64,000 bases of DNA from Rikenellaceae bacterium (GTDB lineage Bacteria > Bacteroidota > Bacteroidia > Bacteroidales > Rikenellaceae): contig JAFRZW010000007.1 in the NCBI GenBank assembly GCA_017442365.1, forward strand, positions 62,001 through 126,000. Reading direction: 5' to 3'. The stretch's first letter is position 1. Each line of letters begins with the position of its first letter. Below, piece by piece: positions 34,370 to 39,758 of this stretch. Position numbers and translations under genes: made by a program. Under the pieces are notes generated by a model. The model was not told where the DNA came from. It ran no database searches and worked only from the letters and a program-made list of their open reading frames with translations.

Positions 34370-35491
34370 ATGAATTTCAAAACTATTATAACCGATGAGG
34401 CGCGCGCTCAGGTGCGGGTTGCCGAGTTTGCTCCGAGCGAAGGTGTCAAGGAGTATAACTTGATGATCAGCACGAGTTTGCGAGGTGCGTTTGCGGAGCA
34501 GGTCGATTCGTTGGTCCGTTCGTTCGAGCAGGTGCGTGAGCAGTTGGGCGATGTGGCTGTGATGTTCGGTCGCTGGTTGGTGAGTGATGCGGCAAATCAA
34601 GCCGATGAGTTGCCACGTGAAGTTGGCGGACGTCGCCTGTCGGTCGTCGAACAACCGGCACTCGATGGTTCGAAGGTGGTGCTGTGGTTGTGGCTTGTCG
34701 AGGGTGGCGAGGTAGTGCCGAATGGTCTGCAACACGGTGAGTATCTGCATATTTGGTCGGCTGACGAACGAGGTGCGGGTGCAACGAGTGAGGCTCAGAC
34801 GCACGATATATTGACACGCTATTCGACTTATCTCGAAACAGAAGGTTGTACGCTCGCGGACGATTGCGTTCGCACGTGGTTCTACGTGCAGGACGTCGAT
34901 AATAATTATGCAGGATTGGTGCGCGCACGTCGCGAGTTTTTCGAGGAGTGTGGTCTGCGTCGTGATACTCACTACATCGCCAGCACGGGTATCGAGGGTC
35001 GCAATGGTGCAGTCGGCAGCGTGGTAACGATGGACGCCTATGCTGTGCGAGGTCTGCGTGAGGGGCAGATTGAATACCTCTATGCGCGTGATTATCTGAG
35101 TCCTACGGCTGATTATGGCGTAACGTTCGAGCGTGGTACCGAGGTGCAGTATGGCGATCGACGCCATCTGTTCATTTCGGGTACGGCGAGCATCGACTCG
35201 AAGGGCGAGGTGGTGCACGTGGGCGATGTTCGTCGTCAGGCGGAGCGAATGATCACGAACATCGAGGCGTTGCTGGCTGAGGGCGCGGCAACGATCGAGG
35301 ACGTTCAGATGGCGATTGTTTATCTGCGCGATATGGGTGATTACGAGCAAGTTGCGCAGTTGCTTGCGGAGCGTTTGCCCGAATTGCCATTGGTGATTAC
35401 GTTGGCACCGGTTTGTCGTCCGAAGTGGTTGATCGAGATGGAGTGTGTGGCTGCGGTTGCGCAGACGGACGCAAGGTTTGCTAAATTCTAA
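34370..35491 (+). CDS. Chorismatase-like Rid-fold protein (FkbO/Hyg5 type)
   Basis: 373 aa, cytoplasmic. The architecture follows FkbO/Hyg5 chorismatases: an N-terminal half with RTWFYVQDVDNNYAGLVR and THYIASTGIEGRNG, and a C-terminal YjgF/Rid-like half (RRHLFISGTASIDSKGEV, HVGDVRRQAERMITNIEALL, VYLRDMGDYEQV, then APVCRPKWLIEMEC, whose Glu aligns with the chorismatase active-site Glu). Known enzymes split chorismate into pyruvate and a hydroxybenzoate-type product. It starts ten bases after a GH18 stop but sits directly upstream of the chorismate-using operon. Activity is an inference; many relatives are labelled only as translation inhibitor/Rid proteins. Confidence 0.72.
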   Translation: MNFKTIITDEARAQVRVAEFAPSEGVKEYNLMISTSLRGAFAEQVDSLVRSFEQVREQLGDVAVMFGRWLVSDAANQADELPREVGGRRLSVVEQPALDGSKVVLWLWLVEGGEVVPNGLQHGEYLHIWSADERGAGATSEAQTHDILTRYSTYLETEGCTLADDCVRTWFYVQDVDNNYAGLVRARREFFEECGLRRDTHYIASTGIEGRNGAVGSVVTMDAYAVRGLREGQIEYLYARDYLSPTADYGVTFERGTEVQYGDRRHLFISGTASIDSKGEVVHVGDVRRQAERMITNIEALLAEGAATIEDVQMAIVYLRDMGDYEQVAQLLAERLPELPLVITLAPVCRPKWLIEMECVAAVAQTDARFAKF

Positions 35492-35656
35492 TTGAACGAA
35501 AATTTCTAATAAATCGAAACGGGGTGCAACGCGCAGTGTAACAGAGCGTTGTGTGAGAAGATCGAAAAAAATTGATAAAAAAGTGCTCCTCCGAGTAACA
35601 ATTTAGCGCAAAAAGAGATATATTTGCACTCAACAAACGAACTAAACGCGAGCAAA
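35492..35656 (+). other. Upstream part of the aromatic operon leader
   Basis: Contains a weak 6-bp hairpin CAACGC/GCGTTG at 35527-35551 (possible terminator of the preceding gene, no T-run directly after) and the -7 box TATATTTG at 35619-35626, from which the leader transcript probably starts. No -33 TTTG at the usual distance. Confidence 0.5.
35619..35626 (+). promoter_or_regulatory. -7 element of the aromatic amino acid operon
   Basis: TATATTTG, exact to TAnnTTTG, 31 bases before the leader-peptide ATG. Confidence 0.55.
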
Positions 35657-35743
35657 ATGAGATCGTATTCGCCGTTTTTTGCATACTTTTTTTATTACTA
35701 CTTCGGCAAAAGTGGGCGGGCGGCTATTGCGGTTATGCGATAA
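35657..35743 (+). CDS. Phe/Tyr leader peptide (28 aa) of the pheA-tyrA operon
   Basis: ATG 35657 to TAA 35741-35743. Residues 4-16 read YSPFFAYFFYYYF: ten of thirteen codons are Phe or Tyr. It is short, lies between a -7 box and an intrinsic terminator, and precedes prephenate dehydratase and dehydrogenase genes, exactly the design of ribosome-stalling leader peptides such as PheL. Ribosome stalling on scarce Phe-tRNA or Tyr-tRNA would uncover GGGCGGG (35714-35720) for antitermination. Both amino acids are products of the operon. The peptide itself probably has no function. Confidence 0.85.
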   Translation: MRSYSPFFAYFFYYYFGKSGRAAIAVMR

Positions 35744-35791
35744 AAGAGATTTATGAAAAATGTGCCCCGCCCCTCAGTGAGCGGGGTTTTT
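35714..35791 (+). promoter_or_regulatory. Transcription attenuator (antiterminator and terminator)
   Basis: Terminator: CCCCGC (35765-35770) pairs with GCGGGG (35781-35786) and is followed by TTTTTC. Competing antiterminator: GGGCGGG (35714-35720), inside the leader-peptide gene, pairs perfectly with CCCGCCC (35766-35772) and so takes away the 5' terminator arm. The operon's first ATG follows 18 bases after the T-run. Confidence 0.8.
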
Positions 35792-35808
35792 CAATGTAAA
35801 ACGAATAG

Positions 35809-36627
35809 ATGAAGAGAATCGCTATACAGGGTTACGACGGTTGTTTCCACCAGATCGTGGCCTTCGAATATTTCGGACGCGACGTGCAGACACTGCCGTG
35901 CGACACCTTCCGCCAAGTGGCGCAGATGGTGCGTTCGGGGGAGGCTGACTATGGTGTGATGGCCATCGAGAACTCGATTGCGGGGTCGATTATCGCCAAT
36001 TACAGCATTCTGCAAGACGCCAATTTGCAGGTTGCGGGCGAGTACTATCTGCCCATCGAGCAGAATCTGATGGTGTTGCCCGATGTCGAGTTGGAGGAAA
36101 TTACCGAGGTTCAGTCGCACCCGATGGCACTGTTGCAATGCACTGAGTATCTGGACGCCCATTCGTGGCGACTGATCGAGACCGAGGATACGGCACTCAG
36201 CGCACGCCACGTTGCCGAGCAGGGATTGCGCCACTCGGCGGCCATTGCCAGCTCGTTGGCGGCCGAGATGTTTGGGTTGAAGATCATTGCGCCCGCGATC
36301 AACACGGTCAAGAATAACTACACCCGTTTTATGATCCTCAAACGATACGATCATCTCTATTCGGCCGATGCCAACAAGGCGTCGTTGTACTTCAAGACCG
36401 ACCACCGTCAGGGATCGCTACTGCGAGCGTTGCAGACGATGGAGCGTGTCAATATGTCGAAGTTGCAGTCGTACCCAATAGCCAGCGAGCCGTGGCGATA
36501 TATGTTCCACGTTGATATGGAGTTTGATTGTTTCGATGATTACATTCGCACGCTCGACGAGTTGCAGGAGGTAACCAGCGAGATTCACGTCTATGGCGTT
36601 TATCGTAAAGCCGAGAATAAATACTAA
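35809..36627 (+). CDS. pheA: Prephenate dehydratase
   Basis: 272 aa. Catalytic domain residues ~3-180 with GVMAIENSIAGSI and the hallmark NNYTRFMIL (Thr-Arg-Phe). C-terminal ACT domain (~195-268). In that domain the phenylalanine-binding GALV and ESRP motifs of classical enzymes are replaced by QGSLLRAL and KLQSYPI, so feedback by Phe may differ. Reaction: prephenate to phenylpyruvate with loss of CO2 and water. First structural gene after the attenuator. No chorismate mutase part; that activity is on the fourth gene of the operon. Confidence 0.93.
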   Translation: MKRIAIQGYDGCFHQIVAFEYFGRDVQTLPCDTFRQVAQMVRSGEADYGVMAIENSIAGSIIANYSILQDANLQVAGEYYLPIEQNLMVLPDVELEEITEVQSHPMALLQCTEYLDAHSWRLIETEDTALSARHVAEQGLRHSAAIASSLAAEMFGLKIIAPAINTVKNNYTRFMILKRYDHLYSADANKASLYFKTDHRQGSLLRALQTMERVNMSKLQSYPIASEPWRYMFHVDMEFDCFDDYIRTLDELQEVTSEIHVYGVYRKAENKY

Positions 36628-36633
36628 ATCGTT

Positions 36634-37809
36634 ATGAAAGAGCCTATTAATATACAGTTGTCCGACCGTTTGGAGGGTGTCGGTGAATACTATTTCTCGC
36701 GTAAGTTGCGCGAGATTGACCAGATGCGTGCCGCAGGCCGTCGAATCATTTCGCTCGGTATCGGCTCGCCCGATCGTCCGCCTCACTCGTCGGTTGTCGA
36801 TCGTCTGCACGAGGTGGCGTTGCGTCCCGACACTCACGCCTATCAATCGTATAAGGGTGCGGCGGTGTTGCGTCGAGCATTCTCGGCGTGGTATGCCGAT
36901 CGCTATGGCGTGCAGCTCGACCCTGAGAGTGAGATACTTCCGTTGATCGGCTCGAAGGAGGGTCTGATGCATATCTGTATGACCTACCTGCGCAAGGGCG
37001 ACCGTGTGCTGATCCCCAATCCGGGTTATCCGACCTATCGCTCGGCGGTTACGCTGTCGGGTGGTGAGCCTAAGGAGTACCGGCTGAATGCCGAGGGCGA
37101 TTGGTTCCCCAACTTCGACGAGATTGAGAGCGAGGGCTTGGAGGGTGTCAAGATGATGATACTGAACTATCCGCAGATGCCTACGGGTGCGGTGCCTACG
37201 CGCGAGATGTTTGCCCGTGTGGTGGAGTTTGCTCATCGCCATTCGATCCTGCTCGTTCACGACAATCCGTATAGTTTCGTGCGCAATGCCGAGCCGTTGA
37301 GCCTGCTCTCGGTCGATGGCGCAAAGGAGTGTGCTATCGAACTTAACTCGTTGAGTAAGAGCCACAATATGGCAGGTTGGCGTATCGGTATGATCGGTGG
37401 TCGTAAGGAGTGGATCGACCAGATTATGCGCTTCAAGAGCAATATGGATTCGGGTCAGTTCCTGCCGATGCAGGAGGCTGCTGCAACGGCTCTCGCATTG
37501 GGTGATGAGTGGTATGCGGAGCTGAACGAGGAGTACTACGCCCGTGAGGAGTATGGCTATCGACTGCTCGACGCGCTGGGTTGCTCGTATCGCAAGGGAC
37601 AGGCGGGTCTGTTCATTTGGGCGGAGCTGCCTGCGGATTTCGAGGGTGATTGTTATGCGTTCAGCGATCGCGTTTTGGAGCGTTGTGGCGTGTTTGTAAC
37701 CCCGGGCGGAATCTTCGGCAGCGAGGGTAACCGATATATTCGTATCAGTCTGTGTGCCAAGCGTGAGCAGTTGGCCGAGGCAATCGAAGCGATCGAAAAG
37801 AATTTCTAA
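36634..37809 (+). CDS. Class I/II aminotransferase, probably aromatic amino acid
   Basis: 391 aa PLP enzyme. Residues ~230-250 hold the Schiff-base lysine motif NSLSKSHNMAGWRIG; HAYQSYKGAAVLRRAF and NPGYPTYRSAV are the usual cofactor-pocket segments, and YIRISLC holds the carboxylate-binding Arg near the end. Family members act on aspartate, LL-diaminopimelate or aromatic acids. Its place between pheA and tyrA points to the final transamination of phenylpyruvate and hydroxyphenylpyruvate. Six bases after pheA. Confidence 0.88.
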   Translation: MKEPINIQLSDRLEGVGEYYFSRKLREIDQMRAAGRRIISLGIGSPDRPPHSSVVDRLHEVALRPDTHAYQSYKGAAVLRRAFSAWYADRYGVQLDPESEILPLIGSKEGLMHICMTYLRKGDRVLIPNPGYPTYRSAVTLSGGEPKEYRLNAEGDWFPNFDEIESEGLEGVKMMILNYPQMPTGAVPTREMFARVVEFAHRHSILLVHDNPYSFVRNAEPLSLLSVDGAKECAIELNSLSKSHNMAGWRIGMIGGRKEWIDQIMRFKSNMDSGQFLPMQEAAATALALGDEWYAELNEEYYAREEYGYRLLDALGCSYRKGQAGLFIWAELPADFEGDCYAFSDRVLERCGVFVTPGGIFGSEGNRYIRISLCAKREQLAEAIEAIEKNF

Positions 37810-37826: not shown

Positions 37827-38669
37827 ATGAAAGCGTTAATCATAGGTGTTGGTTTGATCGGTGGCTCGTTTGCATTGAGCCTGCGCGAGCACGGTCTGTG
37901 CGACGAGGTGTTGGGTTGCGATTCGTCGGCCGAGAATGCGGCTGAGGCAGTGCGTCGTGGTCTGATCGACCGCGCGGTGGAGATGGACGAGGGCTTGGCG
38001 ACGGCCGATTTAGTGGTGCTGGCTGCTCCCGTTGATATAATTCCTCTGCTTGCGACCAAAATTTTGAACAAAGTAACCGACGCTCAGGTGGTTATGGATA
38101 TGGGCTCGACCAAGAGCGAACTGTGCGAGGTGGTGTCGATGCACCGCCGTCGTGGTCGTTTGGTGGCTACGCACCCGATGTGGGGTACCGAGTATAGCGG
38201 TCCGCAGGCGGCAGTCGAGGGCGCGTTCAAGGGTCGTAAAGTGGTGCTTTGCGACGTGGAGCATAGCGACCGCGACGCTGTCGAGTTAGTCGAGAAGATC
38301 TACACGACGATCGGTATGCCTATCGTCTATATGTCGCCCGAGGAGCACGACCTGCATACGGCCTACGTGTCGCACATCTCGCATATTACCTCGTTTGCGT
38401 TGGCGCTGACCGTATTGGAGAAGGAGCGCGAGTCGCAACATATATTCGACTTGGCGGGTGGTGGTTTCGAGAGCACGGTGCGTCTGGCAAAGTCGTCGGC
38501 CTCGACCTGGATCCCGATCCTGATGCAAAATAAATATAACGTGCTGGACGTTCTGCGCGAGCATATTCATCAGTTGCAGATTATGCGTGTGATGATCGAG
38601 CGCGACGATGTCGAGGGCCTGCGTGAGTCGATGAGCCGCGCCAACTCGATCCAGAAGATTTTGGAATAA
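37827..38669 (+). CDS. tyrA: Prephenate dehydrogenase
   Basis: 280 aa. Rossmann motif IIGVGLIGGSFALSLRE at residues 4-20, VMDMGSTKSEL and THPMWGTEYSGP (catalytic His) in the dinucleotide domain, and an all-helical C-terminal domain with HTAYVSHISHITSFAL. Oxidises and decarboxylates prephenate to 4-hydroxyphenylpyruvate for tyrosine. There is no fused chorismate mutase or ACT domain. Third gene of the attenuated operon. Confidence 0.94.
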   Translation: MKALIIGVGLIGGSFALSLREHGLCDEVLGCDSSAENAAEAVRRGLIDRAVEMDEGLATADLVVLAAPVDIIPLLATKILNKVTDAQVVMDMGSTKSELCEVVSMHRRRGRLVATHPMWGTEYSGPQAAVEGAFKGRKVVLCDVEHSDRDAVELVEKIYTTIGMPIVYMSPEEHDLHTAYVSHISHITSFALALTVLEKERESQHIFDLAGGGFESTVRLAKSSASTWIPILMQNKYNVLDVLREHIHQLQIMRVMIERDDVEGLRESMSRANSIQKILE

Positions 38670-38684
38670 GAATAAAAATGAAAT

Positions 38685-39758
38685 ATGACTATGGAAAAAT
38701 TCAAATTGGGCGCAAAGCGTCCTCTGATTATCTCGGGTCCGTGTAGTGCCGAGACCGAAGAACAGACGTTGGAAACTTGTCGCCAGCTGGCCGCAGAGGG
38801 CGTGGTAGATGTACTCCGCGCAGGCATCTGGAAACCCCGCACCCGTCCCGGAACGTTCGAGGGCGTGGGCTTGAAGGGCTTGGCGTGGTTGGCTGAGGCT
38901 AAGCGCGAAACGGGTCTGCCGATTGCTACCGAGGTGGCGTCGGCAAAACACGTCGAGAGCGCGTTGGAATTTGGTGTCGATCTGCTGTGGATCGGTGCGC
39001 GCACGACCGTTAATCCCTTCCTTGTGCAGGAGATTGCCGAGGCTTGTGCGGGCAACGATGTGCAGGTGCTGATCAAAAATCCGATGCACCCCGAAGTGGC
39101 TCTGTGGGCAGGTGCTGTGGCGCGATTTGTCAAGGCCGGTACGCCCGAGGAGAACATCGGTCTGTTACACCGCGGTTTCTCGGTTGGTGGTGCTAACCAT
39201 CTGCGTAACAACCCGATGTGGCACTTGGCGTTGGAGATGCAGAGCCTCTGCCCCAATATGATGATGTTGTGCGACCCGTCGCATATTTGCGGTAACCGCG
39301 AGTACCTGCACGAGATTGCGCAGAAGTCGGCCGACCTGAACTATGACGGTCTGATGGTTGAGAGCCACATCTGCCCCACAGAGGCGTGGAGCGACGCCTC
39401 GCAGCAGCTCGAGCCGAAGGCGTTGGGCGAGATGATCCGCTCGATCAATTGGCGTTCGACCCTGAGCGACGATCCCGAATATTTGAAGGCTCTGTCGCGC
39501 TACCGCGAGCAGATCGACCAGATTGATGCTGAGTTGTTTGAACTGCTGAGCCGTCGAATGGCGATTGCCGACAGCATTGGTCGCGTGAAACGCGATAACG
39601 ATGTGGTGATTTTGCAGAGTGGTCGCTGGGCGAGCATCGTCGATCGCGTGATGGCTCAGGCTGCGAAGTTGCAACTAAGCGAGGAGTTTGTCCGTACGGT
39701 GTTGGAGGCTATTCACGTTGAGTCAATCGAGCACCAGAACCGCGTGATGAATAACTAA
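38685..39758 (+). CDS. Bifunctional DAHP synthase / chorismate mutase
   Basis: 357 aa (or two residues less if the ATG at 38691 is used). Residues ~1-260 are a short type I-beta DAHP synthase (ISGPCSAETEEQTLET, LRAGIWKPRTRPGTFEG, LWIGARTTVNPF, MLCDPSHICG). Residues ~265-355 are an AroQ-type chorismate mutase (LSRYREQIDQIDAELFELLSRRM). The fusion is typical of Bacteroidetes. It supplies both the first shikimate step and the chorismate-to-prephenate step missing from the pheA and tyrA proteins, so this operon covers entry and exit of the pathway. Confidence 0.94.
   Translation: MTMEKFKLGAKRPLIISGPCSAETEEQTLETCRQLAAEGVVDVLRAGIWKPRTRPGTFEGVGLKGLAWLAEAKRETGLPIATEVASAKHVESALEFGVDLLWIGARTTVNPFLVQEIAEACAGNDVQVLIKNPMHPEVALWAGAVARFVKAGTPEENIGLLHRGFSVGGANHLRNNPMWHLALEMQSLCPNMMMLCDPSHICGNREYLHEIAQKSADLNYDGLMVESHICPTEAWSDASQQLEPKALGEMIRSINWRSTLSDDPEYLKALSRYREQIDQIDAELFELLSRRMAIADSIGRVKRDNDVVILQSGRWASIVDRVMAQAAKLQLSEEFVRTVLEAIHVESIEHQNRVMNN

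Follow-up and report, generated by a model that had tools for sequence, protein, structure and literature searches.

In the 64,000-nucleotide stretch of Rikenellaceae DNA analysed here (the window), an operon for aromatic amino acids is preceded by a short reading frame crowded with Phe and Tyr codons and by a hairpin. Does this arrangement control the operon, and which signal would it read? Judging from sequence comparison, it is very probably a ribosome-mediated transcription attenuator that senses the charging of tRNA-Phe and tRNA-Tyr.

Elements of the locus in the window

The leader region lies on the plus strand. The gene directly upstream of it (34370-35491) encodes a 373-amino-acid protein that ends in a RidA-like (Ribonuc_L-PSP) domain at the C-terminus and whose long N-terminal part has no domain assignment. 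A -7 box of the Bacteroidota type, TATATTTG (TAnnTTTG, 35619-35626), is the putative promoter of the leader RNA, and no further TAnnTTTG box was found in the window sequence between it and the start codon of the first structural gene. Thirty nucleotides downstream of the box, an ATG at 35657 opens a leader-peptide frame of 28 codons, MRSYSPFFAYFFYYYFGKSGRAAIAVMR (35657-35743, with the stop codon TAA at 35741-35743), in which ten codons specify Phe or Tyr (F/Y), at residues 4, 7, 8, and 10 to 16. The stretch of regulatory F/Y codons (35666-35704) is predicted by folding to form strand 1 of a protector helix. Strand 2, GGGCGGGCGG (35714-35723), starts 9 nt past the last Phe codon and contains GGGCGGG at 35714-35720; from its sequence and the pairing comparison, it is the candidate 5' strand of an antiterminator. 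An intrinsic terminator composed of strands 3 and 4 (35765-35791), recognized from the sequence, from relatives, and in a scan of the window, sits between the leader frame and the first structural gene, as it does in relatives. Its stem consists of CCCCGC (35765-35770) and GCGGGG (35781-35786), followed by a U-run (35787-35791), and its 5' arm, strand 3, contains CCCGCCC (35766-35772), the complement of GGGCGGG in strand 2.

The operon comprises, all on the plus strand, prephenate dehydratase (PDT; 35809-36627; PF00800, 1e-56), a class I/II aminotransferase (36634-37809; PF00155, 1.6e-58), a TyrA-type prephenate dehydrogenase (37827-38669; PF02153/PF20463), and a DAHP synthase fused to chorismate mutase (DAHPS-CM; 38685-39758; PF00793 and PF01817). 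The preliminary description had listed the box, the 28-codon frame with its ten Phe/Tyr codons, GGGCGGG, and CCCGCCC in the terminator arm, all of which were confirmed from the sequence, and the aromatic operon that it had claimed, including the first shikimate enzyme, was matched by Pfam. Among named records, the closest PDT proteins belong to ruminant-gut Rikenellaceae MAGs (99% and 94-95% identity).

Runs of seven consecutive F/Y codons occur three times in all over the two strands of the 1.9-Mb genome. One of them is antisense to the Lys tail of a YidC-like protein, another is intergenic without a leader or terminator, and the run in the window is the sole one in leader position. In a genome-wide pattern search in which the runs were fetched as loci, a short frame with a strong terminator was found only at F/Y runs before PDT or a split-off aromatic operon. 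A scan of the window for short ORFs rich in any amino acid and with a terminator behind them returned this leader alone. The folding energies of the window's leader were not unusual against shuffles (z of 0.27 and 0.00), and its antiterminator duplex (dG -16.7) gave a p of 0.15 against shuffles of its GC-rich spacer. When compared with arms from unrelated loci, its own terminator arm was among the best 2.4%. Read by itself, the structure in the window is not beyond chance, and its probable significance rests on the comparison with relatives.

Conservation of leader, pairing, and spacing

PDT loci were sampled at the levels of genus, family, order, class, and phylum, their upstream regions were scanned, and the best F/Y frame at each locus was taken as its leader. 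An F/Y-rich leader was found upstream of PDT at 35/35 genus, 28/34 family, 38/40 order, and 22/23 class loci, and leader and terminator occurred together at 35, 24, 36, and 20 of these loci, respectively. As no-leader controls, 13 loci from other classes and within-class loci in other gene contexts were used, and none of them contained a frame with at least six F/Y among twelve residues. The other-class loci, in which PDT is diverged and base composition probably differs, scored 0/13 for the leader. Four other-class genomes with a more similar, Bacteroidia-like PDT (L113, L125, L132, and L135) do have an F/Y leader with a terminator, which would fit a joint transfer of the operon and its attenuator. 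Among leaderless loci within the class, several have PDT in a different gene context, such as L128, where it lies behind an aroA-like gene; at L065, an F/Y stretch is located at the edge of the sequence examined. Among named genomes, 57/74 loci checked had the leader and 52 had the terminator as well. These included Alistipes-type MAGs, Flavobacterium columnare, F. davisii, F. covae, Reichenbachiella, Ekhidna, and Crocinitomicaceae; at the named-genome loci of Algoriphagus, Fluviicola, and some Saprospiraceae/Chitinophagales records, the leader was not found. In 98/119 leaders, compared with 6.8 expected, a TAnnTTTG box lies in the 90 nt before the leader ATG.

The primary sequence of the leader varies freely among relatives while its F/Y content is kept. 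In 129 leader-terminator pairs, the segment past the last F/Y codon pairs with the 5' arm of its own terminator with a median z of -3.6 against dinucleotide shuffles, and the duplex reached p<0.05 in 105 of the 129. The pairing sequences themselves are unrelated between clades (GGTCAGGAT/ATCCTGACC, GGAGCGGT/GCCGTTCC, GGGCGGG in the window, and others). When each leader was offered its own and foreign terminator arms, the own arm had a median rank of 0.018 (p 2e-22; p 2e-8 for 44 non-redundant leaders), these and all other p-values being optimistic and only guides, because the loci are phylogenetically related. Conservation of the short F/Y frame and of its pairing despite sequence change had been proposed beforehand as support for a PheL/TrpL-type Phe/Tyr leader-peptide attenuator. 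This check was passed strongly, and that reading is now supported by the frame, pairing, and spacing conserved across relatives.

The spacing was constant where the stop codon was not. Strand 2 starts 8 to 11 nt (interquartile range, plus one unpaired nucleotide), that is, about 9 to 12 nt, past the last F/Y codon, which is the expected front edge of a ribosome stalled on that codon, given the size of its footprint. The stop codon wanders from 9 to 39 nt past the last F/Y codon and falls into two broad groups, at about 9 to 15 and 24 to 39 nt. In the short-stop group, a ribosome at the stop codon would itself mask strand 2; in the long-stop group, a helix between strands 1 and 2 (1:2) would be needed to mask it.

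Most folds predicted such a helix, formed between strand 2 and the F/Y codons themselves. In the state without a ribosome, 85% of leaders formed 1:2 and 91% formed the terminator 3:4. When strand 1 was covered and strand 4 was not yet made, 98% formed 2:3. At equilibrium, with strand 4 made and strand 1 still covered, 71% of leaders were nevertheless predicted to fold into the terminator; once strand 4 exists, the terminator is usually favoured on energy, and antitermination must therefore depend on the order of folding, that is, on kinetics, as in classical attenuation. When synonymous Phe/Tyr codons were permuted within each of 127 leaders, the fold became weaker (median rank 0.207, Wilcoxon p 8e-15). 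The rank of the window's leader was 0.88, which is not supportive, and that of the close relative L004 was 0.045. The protector helix over the regulatory codons is predicted across relatives, and in the window's leader alone it is not significant. The complementarity between GGGCGGG and the terminator arm noted earlier was upheld, with the refinement that the GGGCGGG segment is opposed by the predicted protector helix from the F/Y codon stretch. Pairing, spacing, and predicted folds together place an antiterminator strand that excludes the terminator where it would be free when the ribosome stalls.

A leader ribosome could instead act mainly on the initiation of PDT translation or on Rho loading, and not on an intrinsic terminator. 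Rho-based leader control is known in other bacteria, and the terminator ends only 10 to 40 nt before the start codon in many relatives. However, the terminator has a canonical GC stem and a U-run, and in most leaders strand 2 has kept the terminator's 5' arm as its pairing partner, which makes control at these other steps very improbable in comparison with attenuation at the terminator.

Codon content and operon content

Operon content was determined for 60 loci. PDT stands alone at four of them, and there the regulatory runs contain Phe only (4/4: FFFFFF; FFTHFFFFF; FDFVFGFLFCF; FRFFFFFAFFF). At the 56 other loci, PDT is joined in its operon by the aminotransferase, TyrA, and/or DAHPS-CM, and both Phe and Tyr occur in the run, with group means of 0.36 to 0.51 for the Tyr share (p 0.0006 for Phe-only versus mixed). 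The four PDT-alone loci occupy at least three separate positions in the PDT tree, and the close neighbours of two of them have mixed leaders. In the four PDT-alone genomes, the TyrA/DAHPS-CM genes that are split off from PDT (L217, L218, L219, and L234) are preceded by an F/Y leader of their own, with clear Tyr content and a terminator; these leaders are MNNTFGYYAFYYYFFYNN; MTTYTFSYFYYWFRTP plus MVNFEFYYGFYYYLD; MAPVHTYYAWSFFFFYFQNKRGHAV; and MIKNISVFAYFYYYFYFSKK. This respecification after operon splitting is the strongest evidence in the comparison that the codons would be read as a sensor.

Tyr content tracks whether PDT is alone or in an operon with common or Tyr enzymes. A relation between Tyr content and the presence of TyrA was also considered and was unsupported (p 0.22). 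Leader specificity thus follows the operon product when codon content is set against operon content, and the suggestion that mixed Phe and Tyr codons fit an operon making both amino acids gained support from the Phe-only leaders at PDT-alone loci.

A ligand-binding riboswitch or a protein-bound leader RNA, with the F/Y frame incidental, would likewise show a folded 5' region and a terminator ahead of biosynthetic genes. Against this, codon content follows operon content, the sequence drifts while F/Y content stays, and no conserved aptamer-like sequence was seen. Neither the window region nor 20 relatives matched an Rfam family (riboswitch, T-box, or Bacteroid-trp) at the gathering score. Such an RNA is therefore highly unlikely. 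One sub-threshold snoRNA match in the Rfam search was dismissed as chance. Equally implausible is a hairpin that merely terminates the upstream gene (34370-35491), with a fortuitous F/Y frame: the hairpin does lie between that gene and PDT, and the window structure taken singly does not exceed chance, but a promoter-like box and a 28-codon frame intervene, and the class-wide recurrence of the F/Y frame, the spacing, and the match between strands 2 and 3 already contradicts it.

Proposed mechanism and related systems

The comparison establishes a conserved leader, pairing, spacing, and codon content at the level of sequence; from there, we infer a promoter, termination, ribosome stalling, and a response to starvation. 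In the proposed attenuator, transcription would start just past the -7 box, and a ribosome would begin to translate the 28 leader codons. With ample Phe and Tyr, it would run through and strand 1 would fold onto strand 2; with 1:2 formed, strands 3 and 4 would make the terminator and RNA polymerase would halt near 35791. When either Phe or Tyr is short, the ribosome would stall at one of the F/Y codons, where it would cover strand 1 and end just before strand 2. The freed strand 2 would then pair with strand 3 ahead of the synthesis of strand 4, no terminator would form, and the PDT-aminotransferase-TyrA-DAHPS/CM operon would be transcribed.

The pheL/pheA and trpL/trp systems of Escherichia coli are leader-peptide attenuators. 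The Bacteroidia device resembles them in its short frame rich in codons for the product amino acids, in its helices 1:2, 2:3, and 3:4, and in a terminator that precedes the first structural gene; across the relatives, all the defining features of such attenuators that can be read from sequence are present. Unlike them, it would sense two amino acids, Phe and Tyr; its strand 2, usually within the frame or directly behind it, keeps a fixed distance from the last regulatory codon even where the stop codon moves; and it has a putative TAnnTTTG promoter and, in some relatives, tandem copies. At ten order/class loci (L074, L076, L083, L084, L088, L101, L104, L111, L119, and L137), as well as at L315 and in the split operon L218, a pair of F/Y leaders stands in tandem before the aromatic operon, with a terminator behind each. 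Serial leader ORFs before one operon are also present in the tandem attenuators of Salmonella mgtCBR (PMC3641672); those ORFs serve an Mg2+ transport/virulence operon, whereas both tandem frames in Bacteroidia are F/Y-rich and each has its terminator. In the searchable literature, which covers few subscription papers, no direct precedent was found for tandem amino-acid leader attenuators or for Bacteroides leader peptides.

As reported previously, the transcriptome of Flavobacterium psychrophilum gave clues for leader-peptide attenuation before amino-acid operons, together with a structured pheA 5' element conserved within Flavobacteriaceae and without an Rfam family (PMC9723704). This element shares phylum and gene with the window's device; the main-text passages considered here neither give the leader sequence, its codons, or a pairing model nor describe the element outside Flavobacteriaceae. 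The Bacteroid-trp motif (RF01692), a candidate cis-regulatory RNA of Bacteroidetes named for trp (PMC2864571), belongs to a different operon and had no gathering-threshold match to the leader loci. The earlier remark that little experimental work is known in Bacteroidetes needs refining, the phylum being not wholly unreported, to judge from Bacteroid-trp and the parts of the F. psychrophilum report used here. Leader-like sORFs have been noted in B. thetaiotaomicron (PMC7366714). Most of the long-standing examples of leader-peptide attenuation come from Proteobacteria and Actinobacteria, and a 2010 survey knew of none outside these two groups before its own Firmicutes case (PMC2965389). This kind of attenuator is therefore already known, and there were earlier hints of a pheA leader in Flavobacteriaceae. 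What appears to be undescribed in the searchable literature is the range of the family across the class, its dual specificity, the change of its codons once operons have split, and its occurrence in tandem.

We lean slightly towards the wider view that Bacteroidia possess a class-wide family of dual Phe and Tyr attenuators, some of them serial, whose codons are re-specified at operon splits. Ribosomes of this group are described as not using Shine-Dalgarno pairing (PMC9976891). If the wider view is true, close coupling of transcription and translation would be one of the main controls of aromatic amino-acid synthesis in a non-Shine-Dalgarno group, and a simple, sequence-defined attenuator family would occur through most of a major class of gut, soil, and marine bacteria. 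Phe-only leaders, tandem leaders, and short and long stop-codon geometries would serve as natural mutants, and coupling, leader initiation without Shine-Dalgarno pairing, and amino-acid sensing would become directly testable in tractable Bacteroidia.

Within the window's genus, no PDT match was obtained in 25 of 61 sampled genomes (about 40%; e.g., G007, G019, G030, and G040). In four such PDT-less genomes checked, DAHPS-CM was present without an F/Y leader within 1.5 kb upstream, and the leader seems to have been lost together with PDT. Where PDT is present, it is of two distant kinds with about 40% identity (L022-L032 versus L003-L021). In the PDT tree, L022 groups with the order-level aminotransferase-DAHPS operons, which suggests that the operon was transferred or replaced together with its leader.
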